A stretch of DNA of 64,000 nt from Yponomeuta sedellus (Eukaryota > Arthropoda > Insecta > Lepidoptera > Yponomeutidae), in the NCBI GenBank assembly GCA_934045075.1, contig OW203732.1:8519001-8583000 (forward strand). The letters run 5' to 3'. Of this stretch, positions 3,137-63,428 are shown piece after piece. Every line of letters starts with the position of its first letter. Position 1 is the first letter of the stretch. The notes below the pieces were generated by a model. It saw nothing but the letters and a program-made list of their open reading frames with translations, searched no databases and was not told where the DNA came from. A program made the position numbers and the translations under genes.

Positions 3137-3367
3137 TTTTTATTTTTAATGCACTAACCCGTGCTAAGGAACAAATTTAAAAACCTATTTATGTATTATT
3201 TATCTATGTACGTAATACAGAGAATAGTGTAAAGAGGTTCGAAATTTCACTGATCCCGTAAGTCGCCCACTGGCTCAATTGGTAGAGCGCTGGCACGGAT
3301 AGCCAGAGGTTGCGGGTTCGAATCCCGGCATGGGTCAAAATTTTTAGCCTCTAAATAGGTTTTTAAA
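3137..3367 (+). repeat. SINE family 1 copy
   Basis: TGGCTCAATTGGTAGAGCGC (A box) and GGTTCGAATCC (B box), flanked by TACGTAATACAGAGAATAG and TTTTTAGCCTCTAAATAGG. The 'ACTAACCCGTGCTAAGGA' tail motif sits at the left end. Confidence 0.85.
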
Positions 3368-9078: not shown

Positions 9079-9189
9079 TTAAATCTGAGCAAACAATACT
9101 TCGGATCTCTCCGCGATGATCCTTTGTGCGTCGGGAAAGAACGGCAAAATGTGTATCCAGGAGTCTAGACTCAGGGTGAGTATGGACAC
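9079..9189 (-). CDS. Exon 44: repeat IV, CNBD C helix and stop
   Basis: 36 codons and TAA (9079-9081), phase 0 in. [20 protein letters not shown], then [16 protein letters not shown], stop. This is the usual CNBD ending (VL.L....W..LL..FP.....I). Acceptor ATCTTTACAG. No C-terminal tail follows the CNBD. Confidence 0.93.
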   Translation of the reverse strand: MSILTLSLDSWIHILPFFPDAQRIIAERSEVLFAQI

Positions 9190-18100: not shown

Positions 18101-21100
18101 CCCATGCCGGGATTCGAACCCGCGACCTCTGGCTATCCGTGCCAGCGCTCTTTCCAACTGAGCCAATGGGTGACTCACCGGCATCAGTGAAATTTCGAAC
18201 CTCTTTACACTATTCTCTGTATTACGTACCGGCAGCGACATCTGGCTGAAGAAGATTGCATCACTTACAGCCCCGAGTACCTACTTTGCAGTTAGGTTTT
18301 TACATCGGAATGATATCGCTGTACCCACATGATTATACTATTTTTATTTTTAATGCACTAACCCGTGCTAAGGACAATTTTAAAAACCTATTTAACCTAC
18401 TTTTTTTTATTTCTTGTACAAACTCGTTAAGTTACAATATTAAATGACAATTTAAAACTTTATTTTTACCGGAATTTTGCTTATTAAACTGAAGAAACGA
18501 GTTTTTAGGTTATGCGTTTTATTCATCTTAGTGTGTCGATGGCAAGCCATCGTGTTGAAAGAATTTATCACTTAACGTAAGGGACTCGCTGATTGTTGCT
18601 GCGTTTTATGAATAACACGTTGTATAAATAACTGTATCGCACAACCGATACTTAACTATACAATTATAACGTCGACCACGACCACCTGTGTGGCGCAGCG
18701 GTAGCGCGTCTGCCTACCATGCAAAAGTTCCCGGGTTCGAACTCCGGCTGAGGACAAAAAGACCCCAAGTCTTGAATGTTTATAAACATGTTTGTGATGT
18801 CGTTGTTTCCGGTTCCCATGACACAGAGTATCCTAGTGTGGGGCCAGAAGCAATGTATGTGCCTGTATGTAAAAAAATGTTATAAACCAAGTTGAGACTA
18901 ACTTATAGATTAGCCTTAGATTACATCCTACTGTAAGGCATAACCCTTCAATCATAGAGACATTAAGGGCTTAATCATCACGCGTACCCACTGAAGATTA
19001 ACCATTTCAAGTGCTTGGGTACAGGAAGATTTCGGGCACTTAGTTTCCTTACGACGTTTTCCTTCGCCTTTAGCGAGTGGTACCTCTACTTCAGTTTCAA
19101 TGTACGTAACATAGAAAACAAAGTCAATGGGAAATGCAGGGGTTTGAAAACGGAACCTCGTGGATATGCGGCATGCATTCTACGTGATACTACTGACCAC
19201 GCTATCACCGCTTGTAACATAAAATAAATTACTTGCAAGACAGCATTTAGATATCTGTTAATAACGCACGAGTATGAAAGTAGGATATCAACATTGTAAA
19301 TAAATAAATGCATGGCATTATTAATGGGCTATCGAAGTTCGACTGGACGTTAATACAAAATCAAACTCTGTTAGCCGATTTATAATGCATGTCCCTACTA
19401 TTATACAAAATTAAAAGATCGCACTTAGTAGTTTCTTGCGCCAGTACGCGCTCTCTCACTCGCATACTCTGAGACGTCACACTGGTTCGCGCGGTGAGGT
19501 AGGCAGTAACATAAATCTGTCTGCTACAATTCTGTCACAGAAGTGAGCGGTAGTAGCCCATGTGGGTAGAGTAATGGACTCGGAAGCGATTCCATCCTGG
19601 TTCGATTCCCAGTTCGGGGATGTATGACTTTGTTTATTTTCAAAATTACGATCAGCTGCGAATTTCTAGTACCAGTATCATACGCTAACGGACAAGGAAA
19701 ACCCGGAAAAGGATACCCGGGGCTTGGTTGGCTCCGCACGTATTGACTGGTCTTTCCTGTGGCGAGGCCGAGTAAGGTGTCAGGATGGTCCTAAATACAT
19801 CCTGACAGCTTTCTGGGCAGCTTACTCCATCTATGACAATGTCCCAGGCAGTGCAGCATCCGAGTAATCCCTTCACCCATCTACTGTGACTGAACATGCC
19901 ACCGAACGCTGTATAAATCATAACATAACATTTACATACAGGCTCATACATTGCTTCTGACCCCTCACTAGGATACCCTGTGTCGTGGGAACCAGACACA
20001 ACGACATAACAAACATGTAAACATCCAAGACCTGTATTTTTTTTTGTCCCCAGCCGGGATACGAACCCAGGACCTCTTGCATGGTAGGCAGATGCGCTTC
20101 CGCTACGCCACAGGATCGTCATCTCATCTCTGTCCAGTTGACTACCCTTTAACTTACTGGAAAGCCCCTGATTCTTCAGGAAGTCGATCAACTCCGTCGT
20201 GGCCTTCTCATAGATGGTCAGGGCATGATTACACGAATGCACCAGCTGCATAGTCGTGGCCAGAACTATAGCGGCGAGCATTTTGCCACTTATTATGCAG
20301 AACATAAGCAGTGTGAGCGAGTAGATGTCGTCTATGACGAACTCGTCGCCACCGGTCGAAGTGAGCTCTGATGTCATCACGTAAAACGAGGTCGCGTAGT
20401 TCCAGATTTGCTGGGGTGGTTGACTGGGAAACCAACGCCATGATTCGTACATCACTTAATGTTAGGAATAACATTTGGCAATTAAAGCTAAGCCAAACCA
20501 ACGCGTTAAAGATGGGCGATTGTGAATAACAATCGAATGACAATTCGATTGTTGAAGTTATTCAGATTATTCGAATAAGCCAAGAACAATCGAATTTCAA
20601 AACAAGTGAGACGTAAACAGTAAACTAGTGCACCTGTGACCTGTACATGCTTAATGCTTATAGCCTACGCGATTTGTGGGAAGAGCAACGACATGGACAA
20701 ACATACATTTTCAGGTGGTTTCGGAAGTTGTTGGAAATTGGTACCTAGCTACTTATTGCTATCAACTAAAAGTATACTTTATTGTACGAGGAAAAACGTT
20801 TAATGTTGTATGGCAAACTGAATGAATGAACTAGCGATTTGCAAATCAGTAATAGTTACCGATTTGCAAATCGCTAGTTTATTCATTCATTTACTACGAA
20901 TATCAATTAAAAGTAGGCTTTGTTACCCGGGAAAAACGCGCAATTTTGTATGGCTACATGAATGAATGAACTAGTGATTTTGCTCGATTTTGCGTGCAGA
21001 CGCTGCACCGGACGCCGCGGCCAAACAGAGGACACCTCGATGCGAACAAGTCGCTACAAGTTCCTACGCAACAACTGATCGCCACCGCGAACGTGTTCTG

Positions 21101-27100: not shown

Positions 27101-30100
27101 TAAAAGCGCTAGGCCAGTCTACTCCACCTTAAAACAATAGCCTAGGCACTGCAGCGTCCGAGTGTCCCTTCACCCATCTAGTGTGAGTAAAGGTACCATT
27201 GGGCACTGTATAAATCATCTCAGATAATCCTCACCATCAGCCATTCGACGCCTACGTGGGACATTACGTAGAAGTAGAAGCCAAAGAAAGCTAGAGAGCT
27301 GTTAATAGTAGATTAGATTAATAAAATAAAAATAAAAATATTTTATTGCGTTATCAACTTAACATTAACATTACACTGTGGTGGGGACTTCCTATTAAGT
27401 GTATAGACACCTGTGCCAGGAAGCCCCGCTTTTCCTATACTAGATGAATTTAATTAAGTTATTTTATTTAGATTAGATTAATACAATTTATTGCACACCA
27501 TAAATTAAGGGGCTTGATGGTGCTTACAAGCGCCACATCAAAAAACATCACTGCTTGTTCTATAATACGTTTTTATCTAAAAGTGAACATGAGAATTCTT
27601 AACAACTATTTTTAGAACCTACAACGCAGAACCTAGAATCAACAACCAAGGACTTTAATCAATTTCCGCCAAAAACGGCCGTTTTAGCGGAAATCGATTA
27701 AAATTAGTCTGTTGATCCTAGGTCCTAGACTAGGTTCTAAAAATTGTTGTCGCAGTTGTTGGAATTTCTCATGTTTGTCATCATCATCGTCGTCAGGCTA
27801 TACTAGTCCACTGCTGGACATAGCCCTCCCTTAAAGAGCGCCACGTTGTGCTATGATAGGGGGTAATGCCCATAATCCCCACGCTGGGCATGCGGGTTGT
27901 GGATCGCAGTTCGGTGGAATTGTACTGCATGGGGCGCTGCTGCCCACCCCCCGGTTCTCATGTTCACTTTTAGATAAAAACGTATTATACTCGTAAAACA
28001 AGTCATGATTACTTTATAGCGCTAGTTAGTGCCCCGAAGCATCTTAACAGATTGGCAGTCGAGAAGTAGGGGGAAAGAATCTCAATGATTACCGACGAAA
28101 TAAAAGTTACAAACTTTGCTACAAACTATTACAAAAAAAGCTTAGCTCCGCTAAAAGGCTTCTTTACCTGATACACGTCACTCCCAGGCCGGAACAAGTT
28201 ATAGGCCAGCATACTGTGGTAAGTAAGGACGCTGGCTCCCGACTTCGCTGAGCTAATATTTGACTGGGAACTTCGCACTGAGAGAACTCCCACTTGAAGG
28301 GGTAAATGGAGATATTAATACATATTGTAGGACTGAAATTGTAACCACGCACATGACGCTACTTTGCTATTTGCCCTCGCTTGCATAATCAACATTTTTA
28401 ATGATTGTGAAATAATGAATTAGTTATAGTTGCAAATCTGGTCTGCCGAGACTAGAAATATAATTAAGGAGATTTTAGGCATATTTCAATTTATATATCG
28501 TACCTTTTCTAGGAAAGTAGCTGACCCCGTAAACGGATTTTGCCATATTAATAAATTAGCCTACGATCTATTCTTATATAGGTATAAAAAAGTGTATATT
28601 TGGTAGGCCAAATATACACTTTTTTAATAAAAATCGTTGTAGCCATTTCGGAGTAGTTCGATAACAAACACTGTGTCATTAGATTTTTTTAATACAGTTG
28701 CTCATAAAGTGGCGTATTGCAGGGACGTATAGCGTGCGGGATGTGGGTTATTACACACTCGTGCTTTTTTTTTACCTTTCCCGCACTCGTGCGTTTTCTT
28801 TCCCAACTGTCAAAATAATGTCTATAAAAAGAAAAACCAACCATGAAGTTTTTACTAAAAAAAAATCATAGAAGTTTTTATGAGCTAATTTGTTTCAATA
28901 TCAGATTTAATGATTTGATTGAATGAGTTAAGTTAGGTTTCATTTCATTTCATCTCATTAAATTTCATTTTCATTTCATATCAATAAAAAAATCTACTGA
29001 AGACTTGGCTGTATGGGCATAGTTCCCTTTGCCTACTAGAAAGGGTGAAGAAAAAAATCTCTGCTTATATTTTTTTACGGTTGGCGCCATTTTCCAAATA
29101 TTTTTTCTATATTAAATTGCTTATTTTTTTCGCAACTGTATTAAAAATAGTCGTTCAGTACACGTGCGGAACCGTCATTGCAAAGTGTTCCGACAAATGT
29201 CTACCCGAGCAGAGGCGCAGCCGAAGGCGAGGGTTGACAGTCGGAAATCTTTGCAATGACAGCCTTTCCGCACTTGTAATGAAATATACTATTATTGACA
29301 TCCGTGACTATTATATATTAGATATGAAGCACAGATTAAAACAAGGAAAATAAAGAGAAAGCATTCCTTTTCAAACAACTCTTAGCAGTCGATAATTTTA
29401 TTTTTCTACTAGCTGACCCTGCGAATTTCGTACCGCCTAACAGTCGATTCTTTATTTTTTTTATTTTTCACTCCGTAAGAACCATCCTCGTACTTCAAGG
29501 AATATTCTAAAAATAGAATTAGCGAAATCGGTTTAGCTTATCTCGAGATTTGCGCTTACCAACACATTCAGCGATTCATTTTTATATTATAGAGATTCAC
29601 GTGTAGGCCATATTTGGCAAAAATCATTGTGTGATTTTTACATTTGACAAAAATGGCCTTTTTCTTACATGAATATTTGACAGTAAATGAAAAGGAAAGT
29701 CGCGTGTTAACGTAAGCCTTGCAGGCGTAGATAGAGTCTCCCTCTACGCTTGCAGGGCTTTGCTTGCGAATGATGCAACAGGATACTCTTTAATTTAGGC
29801 AGATTACGGCGCAGGTCATAAATTTAAGAAGAAGTAACCTAACTCCAAATGAAATGAAAAGGTTTTATTCAAAGTAGCGCAGAAACTGCGGCTTATTGAA
29901 GTTTACAGTTCAAACTAGGTGTCCACTTCAAAATCTAGATAATTTTGGAGAAAAAATGGACAAAAAAATCTCCAAACTCAGACTTTCAGTCTCTCAATTT
30001 TAAGAAACAAGGTATCTCAACTAGAAAACATAGGATCAAACTCTCATGCTTATATTTTGTTTTCTTTTTTAATATGTAGAGTTCCCTTAGGTATAAGAGG

Positions 30101-36075: not shown

Positions 36076-36109
<34 letters not shown>

Positions 36110-42100: not shown

Positions 42101-45100
42101 GTCTCCTTTCATATCATTAAGAAAACGCAAAACTGTCTTTTATCTCTTACAGAGATAAACTTGCCTTTGTACATGTTATTTCTTATGTAATGTCCTATTT
42201 AATGATTTGTGTGCAATAGAGTATAATAATATTTTTTTTATTTATTTATTTAAGGCACATAAGTGTAATGAAATTAAACAAACCAAAATCACAAAAACGG
42301 TTTATGCGTGTTAAAAGGTTTATGCGCGATTTTCGGAGTACACTCTATACAATACACAACATACACCATGATTAAGCTCTGCGAATCGGAGCGAAACCTG
42401 GTCGGACTTTTCCGATATAACAACACCCGTAAGTAAATCCGGACTAGCAGTCTACAATGTGTTGTGCTTACGAAAGTTTTAGTTCAAAAATACACAACAG
42501 TTTATATATAATATGGTAATCAACATTAAGTTGATTAACTTAAACCCGGATTCACCTACTTGCTTAAGTAAGTGAATCCGGAACCAAGCTGATAATATGT
42601 GGTGTTTAGGAAGGTAAGTTCGAACATTAGTTTTAGCTTAAGAGGTACTTTTTCAATATAAATCTCCTTATAACTGTCACATACATTTTACATTCACTTC
42701 GAACTTTAAAGACTTTCTTATGCAGTTGAGCGTACATTATGTAAATGAAGGGTACATACGGTGGCTATAGGGTGAAACACGTCCGGGAACGTGCTGAGAC
42801 ACTGCACTAATGCACTGTACTCTATGTGGAGCAAAATGCAATTCGTTGTTGTCAGGGCCGTGTACACCTGCATTTAAACACAGGCCCATTAATCTGCGGA
42901 ATGCTCTTGAGAACGCCGCGTAAGCCGAGCTTTACTCTGCACAAGAGGATTATCGTTTCATTTCTGTTTGAATGCGGGAATTAACGTCGTCGTTAAAACA
43001 TTTAAGTAAAATCGTAAAATAAAGCTCAAAATATGTAGCGCGTTGCTAGTGATTACACTAGGCAAGCCTTAATTAATCCACGATTGTGATTTGGTTGATG
43101 ATTTTGCTAAGCTGATCTGAGCTAATCAGAATCATAAGATAAAAGTACAAGTGAACCCTGTTTGTAAAGTTAATACAAGCTTAATATTAAATTGTCATAG
43201 CTGGAATTCAATGGAATCTGTTCACTTCTGGATATAAGCCTCCGCCCCTATTCTTGTTTTAATTATCACTTTAAATTTCAAGTATGTGTCAGAAAATAAA
43301 AGGTAATGTTGAGCATACCAATGCTTTTGCACCAATGCAGGTTTGCAAAGCAAAGTAGAATAAAACGACATACCTTAGGCAAACCATAAAGCATTTCAAT
43401 GGCCCCAAATTGACTCCCAGGCCCAATAGAGGAGACCACGTTGCCATGGTGACTCACAAGGTTGCAGTGACCCTGAAATATAAAATATTGGAGACAATAT
43501 TAGATATTTATTTAATTTCATTCAAATTTGGTCTACACATACAAACAGTTGATAGAAATCATTACGGGATGCCATAATTACTTCTAAGTAATAAATAAAA
43601 ATAAATAAATATTAATGGAGATATTACACAGATCTCGTTAGCCCTATACTAAGTACAACTAATTGACTTGTGTTATTTATAGGTGCTAACTCGACGATAG
43701 ATTTAATACAATAAATACCTATATAACATCCAAGACCCGAGACAAACTACAAAAGTTCGTTTCCTAGTTTGACCCGGCCGGGGATCGAACCCGAGACCTT
43801 CTGCTTTACAGTCAGCGTGCCAAACTGCTGCGCCACCGAGCCCCTCTTTAGTCAACTCGTTCATTTAACATAAAATACGTATTATTTCCTATTAGAAGTA
43901 TGTGTTGTGTTACTTTGATTGACAGGATACGCAATAGTCTGATTAGAGAACGTAGTCGACTGAAAGAGTATGTAGTGACTAGAATTGAGAAAGGAATGTT
44001 GCGTTGGTTTGGACATGTGGAGAGGATGAAGGAAGAAAGATTCACGAAACAAATATATATTGCGAATGTGAGTGGAAGGCCTGGTAAGGTACGTCCCAGA
44101 GGACGCCTAAATAGAGGATGTATTAGCAAAGGGGAAGATAAAAAATACCCGGAACCGGCGTAAGTGCATGCAACGACTTATGAACGTTGATGAAGCGAAG
44201 GTGATCTGTCAGCATCTTGGCAAATGGCAGACCCTGGTTTCTGCCTACCCCTCTGGGAGACAGACGTGTATATATGTATTTCCTATTATCAATAGCTTGA
44301 CATGTAACGAAAACGTTTACAATTAGATTAAAGTTCAATGAAAAGAAATACATAAAACTCTCCGCAGCGCAGAATCCCAGTTACTCACACGTCCACCATT
44401 CATTAACAAACGTTGAAGATCATCTATTGGCACAAAAAAAACGTTTGGCATCCGTAAACTTTGTTATCATTCGATAGACCGTTGCTATACACTATTGCTA
44501 TAAAGCGTCTTTAGGTGTTTTGGAATCTGTGTTCCAGAACACAGTACATTGTTATAGTGCTCCCACATTGCCGTTAGAAAATGTTTAGTAATTTTTGTAA
44601 CATTTGTTAGCAAACATTTAATTGCAAATGTTAAAAAATGTTTTCATGTTAGAAAATGTTTAGTAACGTTAAGTTAACAAATTATAGCAAAACAAATTAT
44701 AACAAAATTAAACATGTGTTACCTTTTGTTTGTAAACCTTTTATAAAGGTTTAAAATGTAAGGTTAAAATGAAAGCTATTACAATGAGCAAATCCTCTTC
44801 CATCTTCGTGTAGACTCCCTCAGAACGCTAAGCAAACTGCGAGCCAACACCAGTTTTAAATGTTAGTAAAGATTAATAAACATTTTCTATTAGTGTAGGA
44901 GCACAGTTCCTAACAAAATGTAACAATTGACAACATTTGTTAGTAAATTTTTTTATGTTAGAAAATGTTTACAAATATTTTCTAATGGCAATATGGGAGC
45001 ACCAACATATAACAAAGTATCTGAAACCTTCTGCACTATGTACATATCCCGGCTGATATCAGCGGCGTGCTGGATGACCTCATTGTCGGGCAACACGATG

Positions 45101-48100
45101 GTCCGGCTGTTGGCCGCCACCGTCTGCAGGAAGTCGCGACTGCACTCCTGACGAAGACATAGGTCCCGATTGGACTAGGCAGATTTTCCACGTACAGATG
45201 ACAGAAGAACAACCTTTCCATTTTTGTTGCAAAGTTACCAGTAACGCAATTGGATAGTAACAAAAACTATTATATATATATCCACATTTGGTTTTTCTAC
45301 ACTTATAGAGTACAAGTGCAGTCGTTTCCAAATTATTACTTGGTGCTATCAATAAATCTATCTCTATGACGATGAATCCGAATTTAACATCATAATTCGT
45401 AACATAACTGACAAGGTTTCTGTAACGATCAAAAACACACTTGTTTCGTAAAAGGCAGCTATAGATATAGGCATATCAAAAAATTATATACCTCAGTTTA
45501 CAAAATCCATAAGATAAGAATATTCTTTATTTTACACTTATTGTATTGTATCCATATTAACAATATACTAAAACAAACTTACAAAAATGCAAATTAAATG
45601 TAACTATGTAAAACCTTGTTGTCTCCACTGCTGGGGCACGGGTCTCTTCCTGCATCGCAGGAAGGTTAGGCCATACTCCACCACGGGAGCCAAGTCCGAG
45701 TTGGTGGAGGATTGTAAGACAGTGGCGGGCCATGCTGTCAGAAGTTATCAAGCCGCCCATGAGGCCTCTGACATTATATGAAATTATATGTAAAATAAGT
45801 CCGTAATATGCAGCAGCAATAAAGGTGCTGATACAAGACACATAAGCTTGGGTATAAAATTAAGATTACGTTGCCACTACATACGATTAAGTTAGCACTA
45901 CACACAATTAACTCTGTTAAACTTACTAACTTGAAATAAAGGACATTCGAGGAGAGTTTCCACCATCTCAATGGACAAGATTTCTTGCTGAATATTAGTT
46001 GACATATGATTAAATAGCTCTTGAGTGGATACGGCGTTATTGTAGTACCTACAATAATCAAATGTTTTGTTAGTACTTTCCACGGTCATGTGCAGTACGC
46101 AAAAGTGGCTTGAGTGTGTTCACGGGTTGATGAAGACGAAATGAGTACTCGTTAATTTTCCTCCGGACATACCTACTAAACACGCTGAAATTTGGGTGGT
46201 TTAAAAGCCGTAATTAGTAATTAAAAGTGCCTTCTATTTGGACTAATACTTTTAAGTTTCTTATTAATTAATAAGAGGCATTACATAGTCTGAAAATTCG
46301 CACAAAGAACATACTTTTAAGTATCTAAGACGTAAAATAAAATAAAATAAAGTTGAGAAATCTTGTTTCCAATTTAGTAATAAAAATAAAAAAAAACATG
46401 TCCAATTAGTACCGTCTCTGCCTCTACCAGATTAATAAACGCAGACCGGCGGTACGAAATCAACATTCTGAATTGATTCGATTCGAGATTGTGTCGAGAT
46501 ATTTTGGAAAGTGTCTTTTTGTTGCTTCTAAATCGTATTCGAGAGCTTTGTAAAGGCACCTTCATTTGCTATGGCCTTTACACCACCCAAAATTCGTGGT
46601 ACATTGATGTAGAATATTCTATCTACATCTCTATCTATATTAATTCCATTAACACTCTACATTGAATTAAAACTTTACTGAGTTATCACAAAATACCTTG
46701 TGATTTTTATGTTTGTAATATTTTTATGATTATATTTTTTTTTTTCGTCAAAACAGCCGACGACGCGAGCTCCTTCTCTCCTCACCATGAGCGAAACATG
46801 CGAGTAGTTTAAGAAATTTCCGATTCGTAGTTTATTATGAAAATTCGGTACATTGCGTAGCAGAGTCAACTTGTTAATCTGTTGGTTAACTACTTTGCAA
46901 TATACATAGAATTGTTATAGTAAACCATAAAATTGTACCTATTTCAATGAAACATGCACCTGGTCAGAGTCTTCGGAGAAAAAGTCAAGTAAACAATTCC
47001 GAAATTAAGTTAATATCGCTACTCTATATACTATAGTATCTATAATATAAAAATTAATTGGTGAATGTGTTGGTAAGCGCAAATCTCGAGAGCAGCTAAA
47101 CCGATTTCGCAATTTTTTTTAGATTATTCCTTGAAGTACGAGGATGGTTCTTAGGGAGAGAAAAAATAAATAAAGAATCGACTGTTAGGCGGTACGAAGT
47201 TCGCTGGGTGAGCTAGTTATAATATAATAAATAATACCATTGAATTTGAAATTCAATGATAATACTAAGTATAGTAAATTGTGCTTGCGAAAGTTTTAGA
47301 TTCCGAAATTTCTTTTCGGGTTCAACTTCCTTTTCATCTAAATATAAATAAAATAAGCGTAGATATATATAAAACGCGTATCCGCATCCTTGTTGCCTTG
47401 AAACTATATTTTCTATCCAAACCGACAATAGAATACAAAGAAAAAACTCACCACTGGACGCAAAAGAACTTTTTGACTCGAGCCTTGATTTTGTGACTCA
47501 CGTGGTTAACGGAGAGGAAATAAAACAGCTCCCTCATCGACTCCTGCAGAAATAGAATAAAAATCGGCAGTTAATTGCATCCGCTCGCCACTCATTTCAT
47601 TATCGGAAAATCTCCGCACAAATTTATAAAACAGGTATTTTCCCTAAATGATAATGCACATTCGTACGCTTCTCTTATTTTTTACGCAAAACAGAATTTG
47701 AATCGTATTTATCAATGTCAAGATTTTTATGTAGCCCATTGCAGGGCACAAGCCTTCTCTCAGAGAGCGGACATGGGCTAAATTATCACGCGTGCCCACC
47801 GCGGACTATAAATTTCTACGCTGGACTATGTGAATACGATACCTTCCTCTAAAGGTCGCTAAAACGAATTTTCGAAAACCTCATGCCATAGATAAGTAAG
47901 ACAAGGATGAAATACAAATTTAGTACAACAATAAGTGTTACAGTTGCCCAAATAGGAACCTCATTATTGTATAAAGTTCCATATACATTAGTTTTAAAGA
48001 CCTAAAAGTAACCATATACATATAATTATTCATACTTTCATCTAGGGTAGGCAAATAACAAAATTTGTCACTTTCCAAGGTCCTGCCTGGCATATCTTTT

Positions 48101-51100
48101 TCGGTTCACTACAATCAATTGCTCGCTTGCCTCATTAATAAATAAGTACCAAATATGGTACTTATGTATTAATGAAGAGCAAGATATCAATAGATATACG
48201 TAGAAACGGACCTACGCCCGTCATATTAAGTTATGTACCTTAAATTTCTGTTTCCTTTGGTGCGCCAGCATGTAAATGCTGCTCAACTTTGCCGTGTAGA
48301 AACACAGGACGTAGGATCCCATAATAAACAAGAATGAAACCTTGAACACAAAAAGGAACACAGGTTGTCTACACTCCTTTAGATGTTCGTCTACCATACA
48401 CTCCCTTAGATGTTCTAAAACAAGATCGGAAGAGATCGCTGTTAGCGATAAGACCGCCAATTGTATAACATTATTAAATTTAAGAATCATGGTTGTAATA
48501 TTTTTCTGGTTGTGCAATAAAGTGTTCTCTCTCTATCTACCTATCCATCCATCCATCCGTCCGTCCGTCCGTCCGTCCGTCCGTCCGTCCGTCCGTCCGT
48601 CCGTCCGTCCGTCCGTCCGTCCGTCCGTCCGTCCGTCCGTCCGTCCGTCCGTCCGTCCATCCATCCATCCATCCATCCATCCATCCATCCATCCATCCAT
48701 CCATCCATCTATCCATCCATCCATCCATCTAAAACAGATTCGATAAAGTAGATAGATAGATAGAGGTAGGAACACTTTATTGTACATAAAAATGGAAATT
48801 ACACAGATATTTCTTAACCTAAGAGTACAAACGGCAGCCTTATCACTAAAGTACCATTTTCTACAACGGTCACGGTTTACACTGTTACAAGATTGACACT
48901 GAAGTCTGCCTCAAACACTAAAGGCCAGTTTCTGAATTGAGATTTCGCTAAGTAAATGGTTAACTGTAGTGCTGTCTCTTCGAATTTGTCAGAAAAGAGC
49001 GTGACAGAACGTTTCTTAAGTATTTACTTAGTGAAATTCTCAATTCAGGAACTGGCACTTTGGCTTTCACGGCATTATCCTTCAATCTCAACTAGTATAA
49101 ATAAAAGTAAGTATAGAATAAAAACCGTGCCTGTACGTCGATCAGAACGGTGCCATCAGAACGAAAAACGCCACCGAGTGTACCTACCAAAAACAAACGC
49201 CGACCACGGTAGATTTATCAAAAGCCAGCGACAGATAAGTTATTGGTGTGCTACCACGTACTTCTTATTTTACTTCTTCCTTATGAAATGTGTCTCTGTC
49301 ATTAGATGTTCTGAATAACTTTTCCGCAGATAAACACCACCCACTCTCGATATGAACCCTTTATATGTCCCCACTGTTAGGGCACGGGTCTCTTCCTGTA
49401 CGGTAGGAAGGTTAGGCCATACTCCACCACGGGGGCCAAATCCGGGTTGGTGGATAGTAAGACAGTGGCGGGCCTTACTGTCAGAAGTTATCAAGCCGCC
49501 TATAAGGCCTCTGACATGGCTTAACGACTGCCATTACATGACAGCCGGCACCAATGGCTTAACGTGCCTTGCGAAGCACGGAAGCGCTCGGAAAAAATGC
49601 CACTAGCGGTAGTCACGAGATGGTCACCCATCCAGTACCTGACCGCGCCTGTTGTTGCTTAACCCAAGTGATTGTTTCCAATCACCCGGTCCCGCTAGGC
49701 CACGAGCGTTTCGCACCGCACCCACTCTCATTCCTACCTATTTGAAGTTTTCTCATTGGAAAATAATTTCATGTCCTTATCTCTCATTTTAAATCTATTT
49801 TCTTCAATAGATTATCTACAAAAACTCTAATGGGTGTACTCACCACTAGCAAATCAGTCCCACCAGGAGAATACGCACCCGTGCCTGCGCCGACAACTAC
49901 AGAGGTACCAAAGGCTAGCGCGGTCAGAGTCGGTGACTCGTGTTTCGCATCATTTGTCACAAACACCTTCGTTTCCCAATATATGAGCTGCATCATCCAG
50001 GAATGCTAAAGGGTTTTATACAGAGATTTGGTATCCGTGGACGTTGCTCAGTTGCTTTTCGAGTGGGTTTGCAACAAAAATGTGGATAATGTTGAGACAA
50101 AAAAAGAGAGAGCAGTCGACCCGTTGCTGCGAGTACGGGACGAGAAACAATCGCTCTACTCCCCTATAAAAACACGTGCTTTAGGCCCGTTGGCTCCCTC
50201 TCAGAGACGTTCTTCAGCACTGCTGAAGAACATCCCAACCCCCTGATCCGCGAAGCAGCGGCTTACTCTCCGCCCACGACGGACCCACGTTACCTGGTGC
50301 GCAGGCCCAGGAACGTACTCGTTGACCCGCCCGACAAATTGTCGTCTGACCTGAACCACCTCTTAGAGGCTCGGTCTCAGTCAGACGCGCCCCCCTCCTC
50401 TGCCAGTGTCCCCCCTAGGGGAGGCACTGCTCTTTCATAGCAGTTTTGTAATATAAACTCTTCTAAGCGGACGCTCCGCTAGGGAGCTCCGCTGTGCGCC
50501 CTCCTCGGCCTCGAGGGGGGTCGCTCCCGATGTGGGTTTAGGGGTCTCTAGGACCAAAACCAGTCCCAAGGTGGTGTTTAGTGGGTAGGCGCACTTCTTG
50601 TGAGTCCCACATTGGCAGCACGGCCGGGTCCGTGCTGTTATGCATGAGCATTCACCACCTCCCTCCCCCGTGTCCTCCGGAGGGTGCCCTTTATAGGGTT
50701 AAAAAAAAAAAAAAAAAGCCCGTTGGCTGAGATCCATCGAGCTCAAGTCAAAGATAGACAGAAAAATCTGAAGGGCTGCTGCGAGTGAGCAAGACATACA
50801 TACGTCCTGCAATCAACTTGTACCTGCTTTCTCCAGTGTGTAAGGTGGATAAACGTTGATTAGCTGTCGACTTTAGTAAGTTGTGAACGATATCGCGTTA
50901 AAGATTTTTTGATACGTATAAACGAACAGGTTGTTAAAATCCTACACTGAATTATAAAAATAAAGCTACATAGAAAAGGAGAAATGTAAACAAAAGTATG
51001 CTTTTTGCCAATATAGTAAGTAGGGATTGCCATACTTTACGACATAGCTTCCTTGGACAAGCGTACAGATACAAGAAGCAGCCGCCCCAATAGCTCAGCA

Positions 51101-54100
51101 TTCCGATTACGATGCCGTATCGCATTAGGCAAAGGAACTAAAACAATAATGTAGATAATACTTAACAAATACAAGTATATATTTATTTAGACCCTGCATA
51201 AGTAGTACGACAACTGACGGTAGGTGCGCGTTTTAAAGTAACGACTTTCTCGTAGGTACATTAACTGTCAAGTTATAACATTTTACTTAGCACCACAAAA
51301 CGCGTGGCTCTTGTTGTCATACTAACCATGCAGACATAAGATTATTAAGTGAAATTACGTTACACCCGTAGAAAACTACACAGTATACTATCGCTTTGCC
51401 ATCGCATAGTCCTAAAACTCGTACTTTAACAAACAATATCGTAAAAACCTATTTAGAGGCTAAAAATTCCACCCATGCCGGGATTCGAACCCGCGACCTC
51501 TGGCTATCCGTGCCAGAGGTCGCGGGTTCGAATCCCGGCATGAGTGGAATTTTTAGCCTATTAATAGGTTTTTTAAAATTGTTCTTAGCACGGGTTAGTG
51601 CATTAAAAATAATATACCAATAACGTATTTATAGGTCTGGACTACTGACTTCAATTCGAATGTTTTATCCACTGCACAGATACTCACTTTAGCGTTACTG
51701 TAAAAGCTCTGCTCCCACCGTTTCAAATAGTCCCAGATGTGCCAGAACTGCAATATGGGACATAACCGGGCCACTTGACCCCCTGCGCTCTCCCCTTGAG
51801 GGTCCATGGTATCGCTGAATATGTACACAGGAAACACAGATATGATGTCCAGGTAAAACCCAAAAGTGGACATTTTCACCTCCGCAATCTCTTTCACCGT
51901 TGTCTTTATGACACTCTGAAATCACACATTAGTAAGTAAACTCACGTGTGAAGCCTGGAGATAGAGACTAAGATTAACCATCTTTCCTGATCCTGAGAAG
52001 CTTTTCTCACACATAATTGGGATTAAGATGACCGACTTTGCCTTGGTTAAACTTCTCTTAGAGATATTTTCGGTGAGTTCAGTGATTGGGCAGTGAGCTG
52101 GTCAATCAGAAAAACCGTAAACTACCGATCGTGAACTACCAACCAGTTTCAACGGGAACGTCACGTCTCTGAGTCAATATAGTAATATAGATCCCCCACT
52201 CTAACATTAAAAGCAAACTTGTTAACTAAACGAAGTTTTGCATTTGCTTGCATATCGCGTCGTTCACTATATCGAATACCAGTTGATATTTTTTTGGAAC
52301 GACAACTATAAATAGAAGATGTTAGTCGGCATCAGGCGTGTAGCCTTAAAAGTACTTATAGAATACGAAGACAGCCATCATCAGTCTCAACCATTTTGGA
52401 GGGAGATAGATGACCCGAACACCAATGAAACAAAGAACTTCCTATAAGGATTGGCTGATATGTACCTTTTGTACAATAGCAGTAGTCAGCTGCAAATAAA
52501 TGTGTAGCAACAGTCCAGTTTTCACAACGGCACAGAATATCTCTTCCAGCTTGTTGGTGTTGTGCGCCAGAATAGCCACGTAAGGACACATTATGCATGA
52601 ATACAGCACCAGAAAGAGATGTATCGCGTCGATCATTCGCGTCTGTAATTTCATATCAAAATTCATGAATAAGTTGTTGAAGGTAGGGTCTTAAGTAACT
52701 AGTGTTAGCTGTCTAAATGGAACGCAATCGTAAATCGGACCAATCAAGGGCAACAATCCATGATTCAGAATCTCCTTTCATCCACAATAAGTATGTCTCT
52801 CACAAATTTAATAAAATTTTGTCAAATCGTAGCTTATCAAACATCGCAGCTCAAGTTAAATTTTTACCTTTTTACCAACGTCTCTCTGGCCGTTATTCAA
52901 ATAATTGTTCAACCGCGCAAGTATTTTTCCTATGGAATGGTACACATTAGAAATATTTTTTGATGATTGAAACAATTTAATTAATTAATAATTGAAAAAA
53001 AAACACCTGTGTGGTGTTGTTTGCTAAGCTCCAAAATTCCCTTTTAAAAGCCTTAATAAGGAATATAGGTATACCTATGTTCCTTATTAAGGCTTTTTGA
53101 AACGTCACACAAATAATATTTGTTTTTATATTATAGTCGTTCATTCTTTCTTGACATAATATGAAGACGTATGAAAGTATGAATAGAAAGAAACGTAAAT
53201 ATGCGACAACCGGGACGTGTTATGTTAAATGCAAATAAATTTTATGCAAACAGTCCCTCTTTGTACGACTGTTCGTTGATAGTAAGTGCTACGCCGCTGA
53301 TTCCGTAGCTTAGTCTACCATAGTTATTACGTAGCGCTGATATTGTCCTAGTATAATTTTAAGACTACAAAAAGAACATACAAAGCTGGTGTTAGGCTCC
53401 AGTATCCAAGGGAAAGACGAACTGAGACATATACGTGGGAAGTCCACTGTCGTCACGTTTTTAGCCAGTACGTACAACTCCAAATATTCCGTTGTAAACT
53501 TCGCCTTACGGAAATTTTTGTCATCTGCATGGAAATAAACTTTTGTTCGTTATCTGTTTCCAATGCATCTTAACAACTTTGGCCTTACATCAATCTAACA
53601 TGGGCAACTCTTACCTAACTGTGTTTCTACTTATTCTATACAACGAGTTGAAAATATTGCAAAATCTAAGCAGTATCAATAAATTAAACCACTTCAGACA
53701 AAAAAGGTTTCTTTTTCATTTTCAATGATTTTGAAACTTGACGAGGGTCGATTTCGGGTTTACTCGCTTTGGCTTACTTTATTGACACGTTAATAATGAG
53801 CGGAAGTGACCACTCAGCCGATTAATGTAGAAGAAATGTAATGCCAATACGTCTTCCACAGTTAGCGCGTGGTATCACTACTACCAATAGTCTATATTCA
53901 TAGGTGCTATATTACATTCGTAGGCTACTACAAATTACTTAACAAATGCAGTATTTGGATGAAAGGTTTCCTCTCTCAATATCTATATATTATATAGATA
54001 TTGTATCAGAAAAAAGTTACACTATTATAGCCTTTATCACCTCGGTAATACATGTGTGAATCATCCGTGAAGGTCGAATCTTCATCCGCTACGCCCGCTA

Positions 54101-57100
54101 AGTGGTCTTTAAGCACTTTCATTGGTCGGTATCGAGTGCGGATCAGCCTCGAGTCTCCTTTGTCGTACTCTTCTATGGCTTTCTGTATTATTGCGACAAA
54201 TACCAAGTTATTGAGCGGGTAAATGATAAAATATTTTTCTAGTGTCGCTTTACGAATGTGACTATGACTTACCCAATAGCCTACGCTCGGGGACTCAGGC
54301 ATCGTAGGAAGATCGGGAGGAAAATCAGTTGATGGAAAAATAAAAACGGTCGACAACAATAGAAATTATGAAAATGGGCGAGTCTTAAAACAAATAAACG
54401 CAATGGAAATGGTAATAAAAAAGGACCACACAAAAATACGATGCTAATGGCGCGAGAAAATTTCCAGTAAAAAAAAACAAAAGAGCGGGAAATTGGAAAA
54501 AGATGAAAAAGTTTCAAAATACCAAAGAGGTTTGCATTCTGTCTGTGGGGCACTGACCTCTATGCTGCCATGCCAGTATTCGGTCGTATAGTACTAATGC
54601 AAATAAGTCGCCACTCACCTATTCCTTTTGCTATTTTCTTTCCTACAGTGATTTAGAAACGGCGAACAGACGTCAAAGTAAATTTGAGTATATTTTAAAT
54701 TTACAGGTATTTAATAAACTCACGCCCTGTTTCCCGAAAAGGTAAGCAGAGAGCAAGGTTTGCCTCCAGCGACGACCTTGACAGACCTCTTTCGCTTGAT
54801 CAACATTCAGCACGCACACCGGTTTCAGTCACTTTACAAGCAATTTGAATAAATCTTTATCTTTTCTAATTTATTAATAATTGACAATTTTTAGCCTATA
54901 TAGACCCCACTGTAAGGTACAAGCCTTCTCTCAGACAGAGACAGAGGTTTTTGAACACCTCAGACACTCAGGTTTCCTCAAGATAAAAGATAAAATTAAG
55001 AATGAAAACGAAGGTAAACTAATTTTAATTCGTAGACATTGTACTATTTGTTATCTAATTATAATTGTCTGGGTGTGCAATAAAGTATTATTTATCTCTA
55101 TCACAGAGAAAAACCTCTATCTATCATCTCCTTACGCTTACTTAATTAGTTTGAACCTGCAAATCTACCTACCTAAATTGCTACCTACCTGACGAGCTTT
55201 ACATTTCTTCAGTCTCGTATCGAGAATGTTGCGAATCTTCAAAAACGTAGCTGGTTGCTCGGACATAGCTTTCATAAAATCTGTTCGCCGCAACATCTGC
55301 GGACAAGAAAATAAGTTACAAAGGTGACTATTTGGTGTAGTGCCAACTGATAGTTAATATCATTTACCAATTATTTAGCTGACAAGAATGATTGTGGGCA
55401 TTACCACCCAATGATGGCACAACCTTGCGCTATGGCGCTCATTAGGGGAGGGCTATGTCCAGCAGTGGACTAATATAGCCTGAAGAAGAAGAAGAAGAAT
55501 GACTGCCCCGCTACGTGGCAGATGAGACTATGGCACCTTAAATGTACTTTTAAATTATTACATTTTCTTTTTGTTGTTCGATCGATACCGATATCGACCC
55601 TTGTATGTCCCCACTACCGTGGCACGAGTCTCTTCCTGTATCGCAGGAAGGTTAGGCCATTCCACCACGGTGGCCCATTCCGGGTTAGTAGAGGATTGTA
55701 AGACAGTGGCGGGCCTTACTGTCAGAATTTATCAAGCCACCCTCAAGGCATCTGACATGGTTTAACGACTGCCATTGCATGAGAGCCGGTACCAACGGCA
55801 AAAAATGTCACTACCGGTAGTCACGGGATGGTCCTGCACCTTACGCGCCTGTTGTTGCTTAACTCAAGTGATTGATTGCAATCACTCGGTTCGTCTAGGC
55901 CACGAGCGCGCTTTTTGTAGGACACTGTATACATTACATAAACTCACGCCTGTATCCCGAAGAGATAGGCAGAGACCAGATATCGTCACTTGCTATGGTC
56001 CCAACAAACCTCAACAAACAATATTGGGTGTAATTTTTATCAATTTATAGGGAAGAGCGGGTGATCGTGCTCTTCCACTATAAAAGGAAATTTCCTGCCA
56101 GGCAGATCGTAGGCCTGGGGACGGCCGGTCCAACTATTGTTAGTCGGACGTTATATTTATGGTATGTCATAATATTGAAACACTTTCATTGCGCGGTGCA
56201 GGAATGTTGGTGTAGTGCGCGCGCAGACTTGACATGTGCTCGCCACAAATTTCTTATTAATTTAATGGATATGACTAATGGTATTACCTAAATAAAACTT
56301 ATAAAGAACAGATAGTCCAAGAGCACAAAGGCACTTTAGCAAAGGGGAAATAAAAAGTACCCGCAACCGGCGTGAGGGCATGCAACGACTTATAAACGTT
56401 GATGAAGTGAAGGTGATCTGTCAGGATCGTGGCAAGTGGCATTCCCTGGTCTCTGCCTACGCCTCTGGGATACTGGCGTGAGGTTATATATGTATGTATA
56501 ACCCAAGAGTTCTATAGGTAAAAACAATTACCTGAACTTCAACATAAGTGGCCGCTGTAACAGTAACTTTCGCTGGTATCGAATACAGCAAACTCAACTC
56601 TCCAAGTACCTACAAACAACAATAAAAGTATCATTATGTTCTACAAACTTTAGCCTTGCTATTAAGATTCGTAATTATGTACCAACGTATCTCAGATTTT
56701 CTCTCTCTCTGTCTCTTCGAGAAGTTTATGGATTAAATGGAGTGAGTTAAAGCAGAAAATGGTCTATATGTGACAAATTTTATGCAAATCGATTAGCATG
56801 CGTGATGGAAAACCAAAAGGATGAATGAACAACAACTTCGCATTCACTTCACTTTGACATTCACTATATTAGTGGAGAGATAGTTGGATCGGAGCGTTCC
56901 GAATTAGAGTATTACTTTTTTCTGGTGCCTACAATAAAATAACGTATAAAATATTTATCACCAACTGGATTAAGTGACATCCGTGTGATTAATACCATCG
57001 ATAAAATATTTAAAATTTTATCTATCTATCTTTAAGTATATTAACATCGATAAAATAATTAATATTTTATCGATGTTAATTTACTTATTATACTTATCGA

Positions 57101-60100
57101 TGTTAATATAGCTTACATTTTGGACAAAATTAACATACATACATAACCTCACGCCTGTATCCCAGAGGGGTAGGCGGAGACCAGGGACTGCCACTTGCCA
57201 CGATCCTGGCGTTCATAAGTCATTGCACGCCGGTTCCAGGTACTATTTATCTTCCCCTTTGCTAATACATCCCCTTTTGGTCGATGTAAGTCCGCCTGGG
57301 ACGTCCCTTACCAGCACTTCCACTTACATTCGCAATATATGTTTGTTTCATCAATCTTTCTTCCTTCATCCTCTCCACATGTCCAAACCAACGCAACACT
57401 CCTTTCTCAATTTCAGTCACTACATTCTCTTTCAGTCTACAACGTTCTCTAATCAGACTATTGCTTATTCTGTCATTCAAAGTAACAATAGGTACACACA
57501 CTTCTCAAGAACCTAATTTCTACTGCATTCATTCTACTTTCTTGCTTCTTTTGCCACACCCAAGTCTCGCTACCATACATAAGTGTTGGGACCAGCACAC
57601 CATTATGAATAGCCGATCTAGCTCTTTTGGAGATGTTTCGCTGCACACAATGGAGTGCAAGGCACCGTTTACACAATTTCCCGCGTAAAAACCGAGTAAA
57701 AACTCTTCTTTCTATATCACCTTCTCACATTCCATCCCTCGTAAACAGGCTCCCCAGATAGACAAATTCTTTTACTTGTTCCACTCTTTCGCCTCTAATC
57801 GTTATCTTGCACTCAGTCATTTCATCACCTTTTTCAAAGACCAGTACTTTCGTCTTACTCACATTAAGGTTCATTCTTTTCCTTTTAAATGCCTCATCCA
57901 TTACTGTGACTTGTGTCTGCAGTTCTTCCACCGACGATGCGAACACAACTTGATCATCGGCGTATAACAAGCATTTCACAAGTAGCTCACCCGTCTTTAT
58001 CCCACATTCATTCTCTTTCAGATCAGCCAGGTAACTAACTATCCATGAATAAATTGAACAACTACGGCGATGCGACACATCCCTGTCTCATACCCTTGCG
58101 GATGCTAAACCAGTTAAAATTAACAAAAGTGTTTAAATAACAAATCTACACTCTTGGTTAAATGAAAATACGAGTAACCTAAAGCAGAATCTATAAGCCA
58201 AACATGCAAATCGATAAGCATGCATGCTGAAAGAATATTCACAATAGTAGTGGAGTAGATATATGCATTTATGAATTAACCGTTCCCTCCTTGAAAGCGA
58301 TGACCGGACTATCATCGTCCTCATCCGAGAGCATCTCAATAGTGCCACGCTTGATGCACATAAGGCCGCTCTTGACTATGCCCTGAGACCAGATCCGCTG
58401 GCCCTCTAGAAAGATTTCGTGGCGCATTAGCAGGGATATCTGCCGCATAAAGGCTTCGCCTAAAAAGAGGAAACATTAGAGAAAAATTAAGAAAGCAATA
58501 TGAGATAAGAATATTGTCTATTGTTCGAGTACCTACATTGTAAAACAAATACAAAATAATTAAAAAATTTACATAATACACACAAAAATGTACATTACTT
58601 ATTTCTAAAAGCAATTTCTTACAGGTAACCTTACGATGGAAAGTTGCTGAAGGAAATTAGAAATACGAGTAGCCAGTGCAAATTTGAATACTGATACATA
58701 ATAATACACTTACATAAGTACCTTTACTTAGATAAACTTATATAAATAAACGCATATATTGCAAATGTGAGTGGAAGGGCTGGTGAGGGACGTCCCATGC
58801 GGACATATTTCGACCAAATAGGGGATGTATTAGCAAAGGGGAAGATAAAAAGTACCCGGAACCGGCGTGTGTGCATGCAACGACTTATGAACGCCAGGAT
58901 CGTAGCAAGTGGCAGTCCCTGGTCTCGCCTACCCCTCTGGGATACAGGCGTGAGGTTATGTATGTATGTAAATAAAAGCACAAAACTTATACACAATGTG
59001 TTGGTAAGAAATGATCACTCACTAGTCTCCCTAAACACGATAGTCCTATGGAAGAGCCCGACATTTATATCGAAGATTAGCTCCATCTGTAGTGGCAACG
59101 GCAGCTTTTGCAGATGCTCCGAGTCCAGAACTCCGTCCTTCATGCACCAAAGTTGCTGTTTGTATCGGCGAGCCTGCTCCACGAGCCATTTGGGCGCACG
59201 ATGGAACTCCAGGTAGCTGATCATGTGATGGTACTGTTTGGGAAGACGAAAATTATAGTGAATCGATCTATACAGTTACAGTAAGGCGGTGCACAACTAA
59301 AAATTATAGCCACATTCGTCACATCAGATAAGATTTATTTTATTTTATTTAAACCACTTTTTATTTACATTTTTCAAATCACATAAAAGTATTATTAGGT
59401 CAGGTATTGGTACATGATATGGTTGATATTGTCAATCAAGAGTTTAATAGGTAATCTGTTCAGTGAGGACCTGGTTCTGATGAATTGACAGTGTTCAAAT
59501 ATTCATATCAATATGTTTACTTAGGTACTAAACAAAAACCGATAGCGGTATAAAATGTTGACCAAATGACATAGCTGGATACACACAGATACACGCGGCA
59601 ACATAACTCTAATTAATTAATTAATCGGTATTAATCACAGATTAATGGTCTGTTATTTTATTTAGCTAGATCTTCTGAATGGTTATCCCGCGTTAACGAG
59701 AAAGTACACTTCTTAGAGTGATTGTACGTGATTGATTTAAAAACCTATTTAGAGGCTAAAAATTTCACCCATGCCGGGATTCGAACCCGCAACCTCTGGC
59801 TATCCGTACCAGCGCTCTACCAATTGAGCCAATGGGCGACTCACGACATCAGTGAAATGCACGGGTTAGTGCATTAAAAATAAAATAGTGTAACGTGATT
59901 GATTGTTTAGCTATTATGTTGTTTAAAATATTAAATCGTTAATACGAGTAGTTTAGAGTAAATGAAGGCCACATACTCGCTCCACGAACGTGAGTCGTCT
60001 GGAGCTCTCAATGATCTGGTCCCAGGCCAGCAACCCGATGAACCGGTAGCGCATGAAGACGCATCCCAGCAGCATCAGAATGGAAGTTATCCATTTATCC

Positions 60101-63100
60101 AAGGAAGTCTAGAAAAAATAATGGGAAACGTACTTACAACGAATATACGAAAAGATTGGCTCAAGAACAGTAAAATATTTCATTGCTGTGCTCTTCAGAA
60201 TTTAAAGCATCGCTTACCGCTGGATAGGCATCGCCAAATATAACATTAAAGAGGCGACAAGCAGAGTAATACCAACACGTCTCATAACTGCAAATACAAA
60301 ACATTGTATTTATAGAAAAGCAAGTATAATTACAAATGCCTATAATAACACAGTCAAAACCCTTAACTATATGAAATTAAAGTGCAAGCGTTCATTCTTA
60401 GACAACCAAAATTTCAATTGTTAAACAAAAGTTAGTTGCTTCAAGCAGCAATTTCTAAACCACTACCGGGGTGACGCACATTAACCTTTACACCACGAGG
60501 ACTCTACTCGGCTACTTTAAGGGCGACTTAGCTACTAAAATATAAAGGGTGATCCGCTGCTAGTAGTAAACAACGTCCTACATACTTAGTCCTCATCTGA
60601 TAATATCTTCTTTACTTGACTTCTTACAAATTCACAACGAAATTTGGTCATCAGTTTTCAAGTAAGGGTAAACTTAAAATTTAATGTTAAGAGTACAGTC
60701 GACAAGACCTTTACATTTTAGTTGCAAAGTAGACTGCAAACTGAGTGCCGGGATACGTATAGGTCACGACGCAACCATAAGCAGACAAACTCACTGCTTT
60801 GTGGGGGTCCTGCTAGCTCAGTATGAACTGCATAAACATAAAAACACCAGCTCGGACTGCAAAGTTTTGAAGAAGAAATTCAGCCTCTCTAAATGTTTAC
60901 ATCTTTCCTTTCCTGCTTCTGTGCGATAACGTGTTCTCTACTCTTGCAAAACCTACTGAATGCTTACGTATCGAATCTCAGCTGCTCGGAGCCAACGTGG
61001 GGCGGGTAGCCGATGGCATGCCAAGGCTTATCAATCTTCGGCTTCAAGTGCGACGAGTACCAGGTGCAAGCTCCCGCGTGTAAGATGAGGAGAGCTAAAA
61101 TGGCGTGCTCGATGAGGAAGAGCAGTTTGCGTGACCTGTGCATCTGGAAAAGAACGAAATAGGCAAATAAAGAGGTTACACAAATCGCACAAACATAATC
61201 TAAAAGGTTGGATTCACTTTGTAGTATGAGTATTGTGACAACTCTTGAGCAAAATAAAAACGCACCGGTAAGATGAAGACCAGATAATCTTATGTATTTT
61301 AAAAACCTATTAAGAGGCTAAAAAATCCACCCATGCCGGGACTCGAAACCGCAACCTCCGGCTAACCGTGCCAGCGATCTCCCAACTGAGCTAATGGGCA
61401 AGTATAGGCATAAGTGAAATTTAGAACCTCTTTAAAATACTCTCTGTATTACTTACAGATAGCGAAGTTACTCGCAAGTTATTCGCCTGCAGCAAGATAG
61501 AATATTATTTATTGCATGTACACCAGGAATTACATAAGAGACATAAAAAATAAGAGTCCATTACTAGTGGCGGCCTTATTACTAAAAGTTATTTGTCCCA
61601 GACCACCAGATTGAACCCAATCTGACTGAACTGAAATATTGTAAACCAATTTTAATATTTCAGTTCAGTCCTAGCGAGTAATTGAGTACGTACATTAAAC
61701 AAGGTATTTATAAATATTTCTTAGTGTATGTACTGTTTAAATATTCTACGTACCTACTATTTTTTCTCAATCTTAAAATTCAATGAAATTACTAACCATA
61801 CTGTTCAAGTGCCAGAAGTATGTGAATAGCCTGTAAATGCGGGCAACGTTTATCCACCTCCAAATCACTCCTATATAGTAGTAGTCACATGATTTTGTAA
61901 CTGTAAAGAAGACACAGCCGTAATTCTAGTATTAATAATCTTCTTTAATATAAAAATGAATCGCTGAATGTGTTGGTAAGCGCACATCTCAAGAGTAGCT
62001 GAGCCGATTTCGCTAATTCTTTTTTTAGAATATTCCTTGAAGTACGAGGATGGTTCTTACGGAGAGAAAAATAAAAAAAAATAAAGAATCGTCTGTTAGG
62101 TGGTACGAAGTTTGCTGGGTCAGCTAATAATAATAATAATAAATAAAATTTACATACAGGCACATACATTGTTTCTGGCCCCACACTAGGATACTCTGTG
62201 TCGTGGGAACCAGAAACAACAACATCACAAACATGTAAACATCCAAGACCTGTTTTTTTTTGTCCCCAGCCGGGGTTCTAAAAACCGGTTTTTAAATAGT
62301 AATAAATCTACTATATAAAAATCTCGTGTTTGAGTTTCCTGTCGAAATCCTCCGAAACGGTTTCACTGATTTTTATGATTTGTTGTGTATATTTCTAATA
62401 TCTAAGAGTAGGTCTTAGCGCAAGTACTAATATAAAAATCTCGTGTTTGAGTTTCTTATCGAAATCCTCCGAAACGGTTTCACTGATTTTTATGATTTGT
62501 TGTGTATATTTCTAATATCTAAGAGTAGGTCTTAGCGCAAGTACTAATATAAAAATCTCGTGTTTGAGTTTCTTATCGAAATCCTCCGAAACGGTTTCAC
62601 CGATGTTTATGATTTGTTGTGTATATTTCTAATATCTAAGAATAGGTCTTAGCGCAAGTAATATTGCACAAGATTTTATAATTCCAGCTTTTTTAGGTCT
62701 AGCCCCTAAGAGTTTCTTCATCTTCTTCTTCATTCTATATTACTCCACTGCTGGACATAGCCCTCCCCTATTGAGTGCCATAGCGCCCTGTCTTCAGCTT
62801 GCCGCATCTAGCATCTGCCAGCAGTTTTACGCAGATCGTCATCCCACCCGGTCGGAGGGCGTCCTACACTACGTTTGTTGAGTCGCCGTCTTCACTCAAG
62901 AACACGTTTACTCCAACAGTTGTCGGTTCTTCGCGAGATATGGCCAGTCCTCTGCCACTTCAGCTCACTTACAGTTTATATTTCACAATACATTTGCCAA
63001 GAGTAGTGACTGAACAATAACTGTTTTAAATTAACAATAACAAATAAAAAGGAGGACCAGACTTAGACTTACTAAAAATGACTCTCTTGGTTATCGACTC

Positions 63101-63428: not shown

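Follow-up and report, generated by a model that had tools for sequence, protein, structure and literature searches.

Gene structure and anatomy of the four repeats

The window is a 64,000-nucleotide stretch of the Yponomeuta sedellus genome (C12:8519001-8583000, in an assembly of 657.5 Mb and 57 contigs). Its minus strand holds exons 3-46 of a 46-exon gene for a four-repeat channel protein (9079..63428), in frame and with one terminal stop. The exon chain was obtained with a self-written protein-to-genome spliced aligner, using the Cydia splendana orthologue P0018 as query and the minus strand of window positions 63600-8000 as target. It runs from 63428 to 9082, with the stop TAA directly after it at 9081-9079; an AATAAA is found at 9013..9018 (minus strand), 63 bases on from the first base of this stop codon. 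The alignment gives exactly 44 coding exons in one frame (63428-9079; 6,036 nt, divisible by three, sole stop at the end), as an earlier note on this DNA had claimed. The extent of the gene given there, 9079..63428, held for the 44 exons and the stop, but 63428 is not the beginning of the gene, since the adjoining DNA has two further coding exons, at a distance of 1.5 to 2.7 kb from the window edge. Exon 1, with the start codon (MLMSVSEPSLG...), is at 66658-66609 on the scale of the window (minus strand). Exon 2 is at about 65649-65511 (minus strand), its end at 65511 being fixed and its acceptor being 65649 or one of several alternatives. The full model encodes 2,074 residues, and all 45 of its introns are GT-AG. 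Two candidate exons were dropped from the alignment: 63600-63469, a spurious match in a simple repeat, and 29506-29483, a 24 bp gap-filling micro-exon with a weak donor whose removal leaves the frame the same.

The four repeats and their linkers are all on the minus strand, and each repeat consists of S1-S6, a C-linker and a cyclic nucleotide-binding domain (CNBD). Repeat 1 (55189..63428; exons 3-11, residues 64-499) is joined through a linker at 53382..54182 (exons 12-13) to repeat 2 (42760..52642; exons 14-23, residues 595-1030), which has few charges in S4. A linker at 40801..41872 (exons 24-25) leads to repeat 3 (31315..39990; exons 26-35, residues 1091-1565), and a Ser-rich linker at 28168..30419 (exons 36-37) leads to repeat 4 (9079..26606; exons 38-46, residues 1633-2074). 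Modal identity per 25-residue block is 0.75-0.86 in linker 1-2, which is at or above the mean of the protein (0.75); most values in linkers 2-3 (0.62-0.76) and 3-4 (0.61-0.73) fall short of that mean.

The spliced protein contains four stretches that match the Pfam cNMP_binding domain. It does not reach Pfam Ion_trans, and Ion_trans_2 is sub-threshold (E 0.023), so the membrane parts were recognised through relatives and not through Pfam. S1, S2, S3, S5 and S6 are visible by hydropathy in each repeat, and the pore helix and S6 are alignable in every repeat. S4 was placed by alignment; it has R/K at every third position in repeat 4, few in repeats 1 and 3, and fewest in repeat 2. Together, the Pfam CNBDs, the hydropathy helices and the aligned S4 bear out the prediction of four complete units.

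Folding was carried out on the Parnassius protein P0046, a half-length orthologue that runs from the repeat 2 C-linker to the end; P0048, a broken gene model, was excluded. The AlphaFold model of P0046 has a mean pLDDT of 63, and its repeat 3 pore helix appears to be mispredicted in the underlying gene model. Repeat 4 is mostly at pLDDT 70-89, with a low outer loop at 38-44, and is modelled as six membrane helices, a pore helix, a C-linker and a CNBD. The nearest solved chains to the P0046 model are CNGA1/B1 (7rh9_D, E 2.4e-18, TM-score 0.82 by target; matched repeat unspecified). By sequence, the nearest solved families among the best 60 of 143 matches are SthK, CNG, HCN, SKOR, KCNH and GORK, and no CNGK is named among these 60.

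The introns carry other elements. A reverse-transcriptase fragment (RVT_1, E 2.3e-8) lies at 57728-58087 on the minus strand, between exons 9 and 10, and long simple repeats are found at 63462-63905 beside exon 3 and at 48536-48740 between exons 17 and 18. The window also has eight tRNA-like matches (Ser, Gly, Phe, Tyr; 3265-3336, 9933-10002, 18097-18173, 18685-18755, 32436-32509, 33967-34043, 43770-43842 and 59764-59839). These may be tRNA-derived SINEs, since the sequence in which several of them sit has matches elsewhere in the window. A self-comparison of minus-strand ORFs for repeat finding was swamped by interspersed repeats.

A predicted single chain across Lepidoptera

A protein search with the draft product, a check that the earlier note had proposed, returned 52 proteins, of which 49 are lepidopteran, one is from the body louse and two are further proteins. 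The 49 lepidopteran proteins share 53-66% identity with the window model, far more than chance would give. Most of these are titled uncharacterized or hypothetical protein. Thirty-four of the 49 models are at least 1,800 aa long and are modelled as single chains, ten are 1,500-1,799 aa and five are shorter; the search is confined to proteins with lengths between 0.55 and 1.75 times that of the query, and models under about 860 aa fall outside it. The expectation that automatic annotation would probably split this locus does not agree with the 34 long models, within that same size range. In Hyposmocoma kahamanoa there are two different proteins of the window type (P0042 and P0044), on contigs of equal length, and an extra duplication is possible in this species.

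These data support one lepidopteran gene that encodes four fused CNG-type units, with a single predicted mRNA. By the gene model, the protein has four 6TM + CNBD repeats in one chain, as in CNGK, and not one unit per chain in a tetramer of separate subunits, as in the single-unit HCN and CNG channels. It is highly improbable that the locus comprises several genes of one or two repeats each, wrongly fused in the earlier note and in gene predictions. Fifteen of the 49 database models do not reach 1,800 aa, the gene structure is a prediction from DNA, and linkers 2-3 and 3-4 fall below the mean conservation of the protein over most of their length, as might be expected of joined genes. However, there is no stop or frame break between the repeats, every intron has GT-AG borders, and linker 1-2 is as conserved as the protein at large or more so. 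The long single-chain models also argue against joining, although gene models of related species are not mutually independent, and the order of the repeats is the same in the louse (three repeats present) and in sponge-type proteins.

Descent from the CNGK family

CNGK channels (tetraKCNG; found in sea urchin, Ciona, zebrafish, corals, sponges and choanoflagellates) have the same architecture, in which one chain carries S1-S6, C-linker and CNBD four times over, and a K+ current in sperm is among the traits of the family. Two partial louse proteins, Pediculus P0050 and Polyplax P0053, share the family and the repeat order with the window protein at 24-25% identity. Among the louse, sponge-type and other repeats that were compared, the best matches of window repeats 1, 2 and 3 are repeats 1, 2 and 3 of P0050, respectively. 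The repeats were cut by hand for this comparison, as the full multiple alignment had set the third louse pore under repeat 4. A protein search with P0050 returned only five proteins, one of them lepidopteran, and absence from that set means little.

In a careful tree of 31 repeats, the insect repeats 1, 2, 3 and 4 each form a clade with 100/100 support. The insect repeats join the glass-sponge-type repeats of the same number for repeat 1 (91/84), repeat 3 (97/92) and repeat 4 (91/87); for repeat 2 the join is without support in this tree, and has a support of 88 in a 47-row tree. The sponge-type rows are P0051, which shares 82% identity with an Oopsacas minuta (glass sponge) protein, and P0058. 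In clade tests, the constraint that unites insect with sponge-type repeats could not be rejected for repeats 1 and 3, and repeat 2 needed none. Identity between the window protein and the sponge rows is only 17-20%, yet the kinship in the trees is repeat by repeat. A further row, P0061, groups by number for repeat 3 (97/94) and weakly for repeat 4, but not for repeats 1 and 2. P0054, P0063 and P0064 form a separate, distant four-repeat group in the 47-row tree, and their own third filter is altered (VVIGD-like).

Repeat-by-repeat common descent with CNGK-type proteins is thus found for repeats 1, 3 and 4 in the 31-repeat tree, and the joining of the window gene to the louse and glass-sponge-type four-repeat proteins upholds the choice of CNGK as the right precedent. 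The trees, in which sponge-type rows and not sea-urchin or fish sequences stand for the known CNGK proteins, indicate that the gene is CNGK-type by descent and is a moth member of this family. In the accessible parts of the open-licence CNGK literature, neither an insect member nor a member without any K+ filter was found. As far as those parts go, four-repeat CNG channels are known, the insect member and the loss of every K+ filter are new, and the gene brings the CNGK family into insects.

Loss of the K+ filter in all four pores

CNGK pores carry GYG or GFG according to the portions available of PMC4749565, and the window protein has neither in any of its four repeats. This is the most unusual feature of the gene, and the earlier note is silent on it, as on the two relatives described below. 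Its filters in order are IFGD, GTGA, GCTP and GGDE, and those of Lepidoptera are mostly IFGD, GxSD/E, GCTP and GGDE/GSDE. The window protein and 49 others gave 50 rows, from which rows gapped at the filter were dropped; the canonical G[YFL]G is found in 0/42, 0/46, 0/48 and 0/46 rows for repeats 1-4, respectively.

The repeat 1 filter (IFGD; 60230..60241, minus strand) has I, V, L or T in place of the first glycine of GYGD in all 42 rows, and N, F, G, D and P in this region are each present in 42/42. The repeat 2 filter (GTGA; 49874..49885, minus strand) is looser, with an acid in 40 of 46 rows that is absent from the window's own repeat 2; other Lepidoptera mostly have GxSD/E here. The repeat 3 filter (GCTP; 35564..35575, minus strand) has its cysteine in 48/48 rows. 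The repeat 4 filter (GGDE; 20342..20353, minus strand) reads GGDE in 36 rows, GSDE in nine and GGEE in one, with G in 46/46, D in 45/46 and E in 46/46.

Unlike the window protein, the louse P0050 has GFG in all three of its pores, and P0053 has GFG and GYG in its two aligned pores. The sponge-type and coral rows likewise keep GFG or GYG in the repeats that they have. The window protein shares a non-K+ filter and a CNG fold with ordinary CNGA channels, and differs from them in the number of repeats, since the CNGA family has one repeat per chain. The TIGET filter of ordinary CNG channels gives a less selective cation path.

It is quite improbable that the protein is still a K+ channel like the sea-urchin CNGK, with an unusual filter. 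Its CNGK ancestry is clear and repeat 1 keeps FGD, but the canonical filter is missing from every row counted in each of the four repeats, and two repeats of a paralogue from this moth still have GYG/GFG (see below).

Related loci in the same genome

A six-frame search identified a second four-repeat CNGK-type locus, here called paralogue B (C10:11122453-11147333, plus strand; loci L015-L018). Its filters in repeats 1-4 are ALGD, VGYGD, AGFGD and TGTGD, so that repeats 2 and 3 are canonical and repeats 1 and 4 are changed. The four-repeat model of paralogue B comes from spliced alignment and open frames, and is incomplete. In a concatenated tree, for which 36 residues of B repeat 4 had been translated out of frame, paralogue B groups with the window gene against the louse at a low branch support of 49/18, and neither alternative is rejected (AU p 0.25 and 0.37). 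Shared intron positions were considered as a marker of kinship and set aside, as two of the 29 B introns share their place and phase with the window gene, where random placement gives a mean of 1.3.

Another multi-repeat locus, the third and a more diverged one, lies at C13:7862015-7836601 (minus strand; loci L021-L024). Its 739-residue open frame spans the last part of repeat 1 and the greater part of repeat 2 without a G[YFL]G, and matches to a repeat 3 CNBD are found downstream of the frame. An exon of an ordinary single-unit CNGA (TIGETPQP) is present on C36.

With two of its four filters canonical, paralogue B is an intermediate in the same genome, and the lice represent the unconverted state. 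The window gene can thereby be seen as a natural experiment on the domain-by-domain conversion of a K+ pore.

Nucleotide pockets of the CNBDs

The Glu and Arg that mark the phosphate-binding stretch in HCN and CNG channels are missing as a pair from all four CNBDs. Arg is found in the pocket stretch in 0/39, 0/45, 0/48 and 0/45 rows for repeats 1-4, respectively. Repeat 1 keeps the Glu in 39/39 rows and has a Lys one position off the place of the Arg in 39/39. Repeat 2 has lost the Glu and has a Lys in 48/48 rows, and repeats 3 and 4 have lost both Glu and Arg. The ordinary CNGA exon on C36 differs in keeping the Glu and an Arg-rich pocket (GEVSVL...NRRTANV).

The available text of PMC4749565 describes the sea-urchin channel ApCNGK as gated by cGMP at repeat 3, and the zebrafish CNGK as gated by pH instead of cyclic nucleotide. 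In contrast to ApCNGK, repeat 3 of the window protein lacks both the pocket Glu and the Arg, and does not by its residues appear to be a cGMP-binding CNBD. Direct cyclic-nucleotide gating of the window channel is therefore unlikely as judged from the residues. Some ligand binding is possible in repeats 1 and 2, given the Glu of repeat 1 and the Lys near or at the place of the Arg.

The sponge-type P0051 and P0058 keep PRT in repeats 2 and 3. The louse relatives share the absence of the pocket Arg with the window protein in repeats 1 and 2, and their repeat 3 ends early. Since the louse repeats 1 and 2 have no Arg but still have the filter, pocket loss seems to have preceded filter loss, unless the pocket was lost twice.

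A conducting pore or a silent one

All four filters are lost, but in three repeats the residues that took their place are strongly constrained, which suggests a working pore of other selectivity rather than decay. The reading that we favour is that this CNGK-family chain, without K+ filters or the Glu+Arg pair, probably folds alone into a four-domain channel that is neither K+-selective nor opened by direct cyclic-nucleotide binding. In such a channel, the four repeats of one chain would surround a single pore, and the backbone-lined K+ sites would be broken at the filter. The entrance would be lined by side chains instead, with Thr/Ser from repeat 2, Cys, Thr and Pro from repeat 3, Asp-Glu from repeat 4 and an acid from repeat 1. 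This may favour a less selective cation path, as with the TIGET filter of ordinary CNG channels. Voltage sensing would be mainly on repeats 1, 3 and 4.

The altered pore could also be closed to ions. The main alternative, which we regard as rather unlikely, is a four-repeat membrane protein that does not conduct ions, for example a partner protein in the membrane of sperm that senses voltage or acts as a scaffold. Such a protein might well have every filter changed, as is seen here down to the missing first filter glycine of repeat 1, and most of the CNBD pocket residues are gone as well. Conservation is also higher in the cytoplasmic than in the membrane parts, and repeat 1 shows this most clearly. 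On the other hand, some of the new filter residues of repeats 1, 3 and 4 are invariant among the rows compared, for which a dead pore would have no need, an alignment of pore helix and S6 is possible in every repeat, and the repeat 4 model folds with a pore helix.

If the pore of the favoured reading conducts, its working would resemble that of the four-domain Nav, Cav and NALCN channels, which have four unlike repeats with a different filter in each. These channels are not among the solved families matched by the window protein (best 60 of 143), and the window protein has CNBDs. A 2018 review describes the CNGK homologues, in the sections at hand, as being without obvious adaptations or specialisations of the four domains (PMC6259924). 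With its own filter in each repeat, and three of these held across the Lepidoptera compared, the window gene looks like a counterexample to that description.

A possible role in sperm

CNGK is expressed in the sperm of sea urchin, Ciona and zebrafish, according to the accessible passages of PMC8835908 and PMC4749565. A sperm role for the window gene is inferred solely from this expression of the family in other animals. The available part of PMC6660944 suggests an unknown substitute Ca2+ channel in animals scored as lacking CatSper but having sNHE and sAC. The same part reports that sNHE and sAC are both expressed in silkworm testis and that Heliconius has two CatSper alpha subunits left. A search for CatSper-beta (PF15149) gave no matches, and the control was likewise without matches anywhere, so the result carries no weight.

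The window gene would be a concrete candidate for the substitute channel suggested in that part of PMC6660944. An extension of this, which we consider unlikely, is that in Lepidoptera the repeats of a four-repeat K+ channel changed one after another to give an asymmetric cation channel of four domains (FGD, SD/E, CTP and GDE), which stands in for the lost CatSper as the calcium or sodium entry channel in moth sperm. If true, this would be a second natural route to a Nav/Cav-like architecture, with an unlike filter in each domain.
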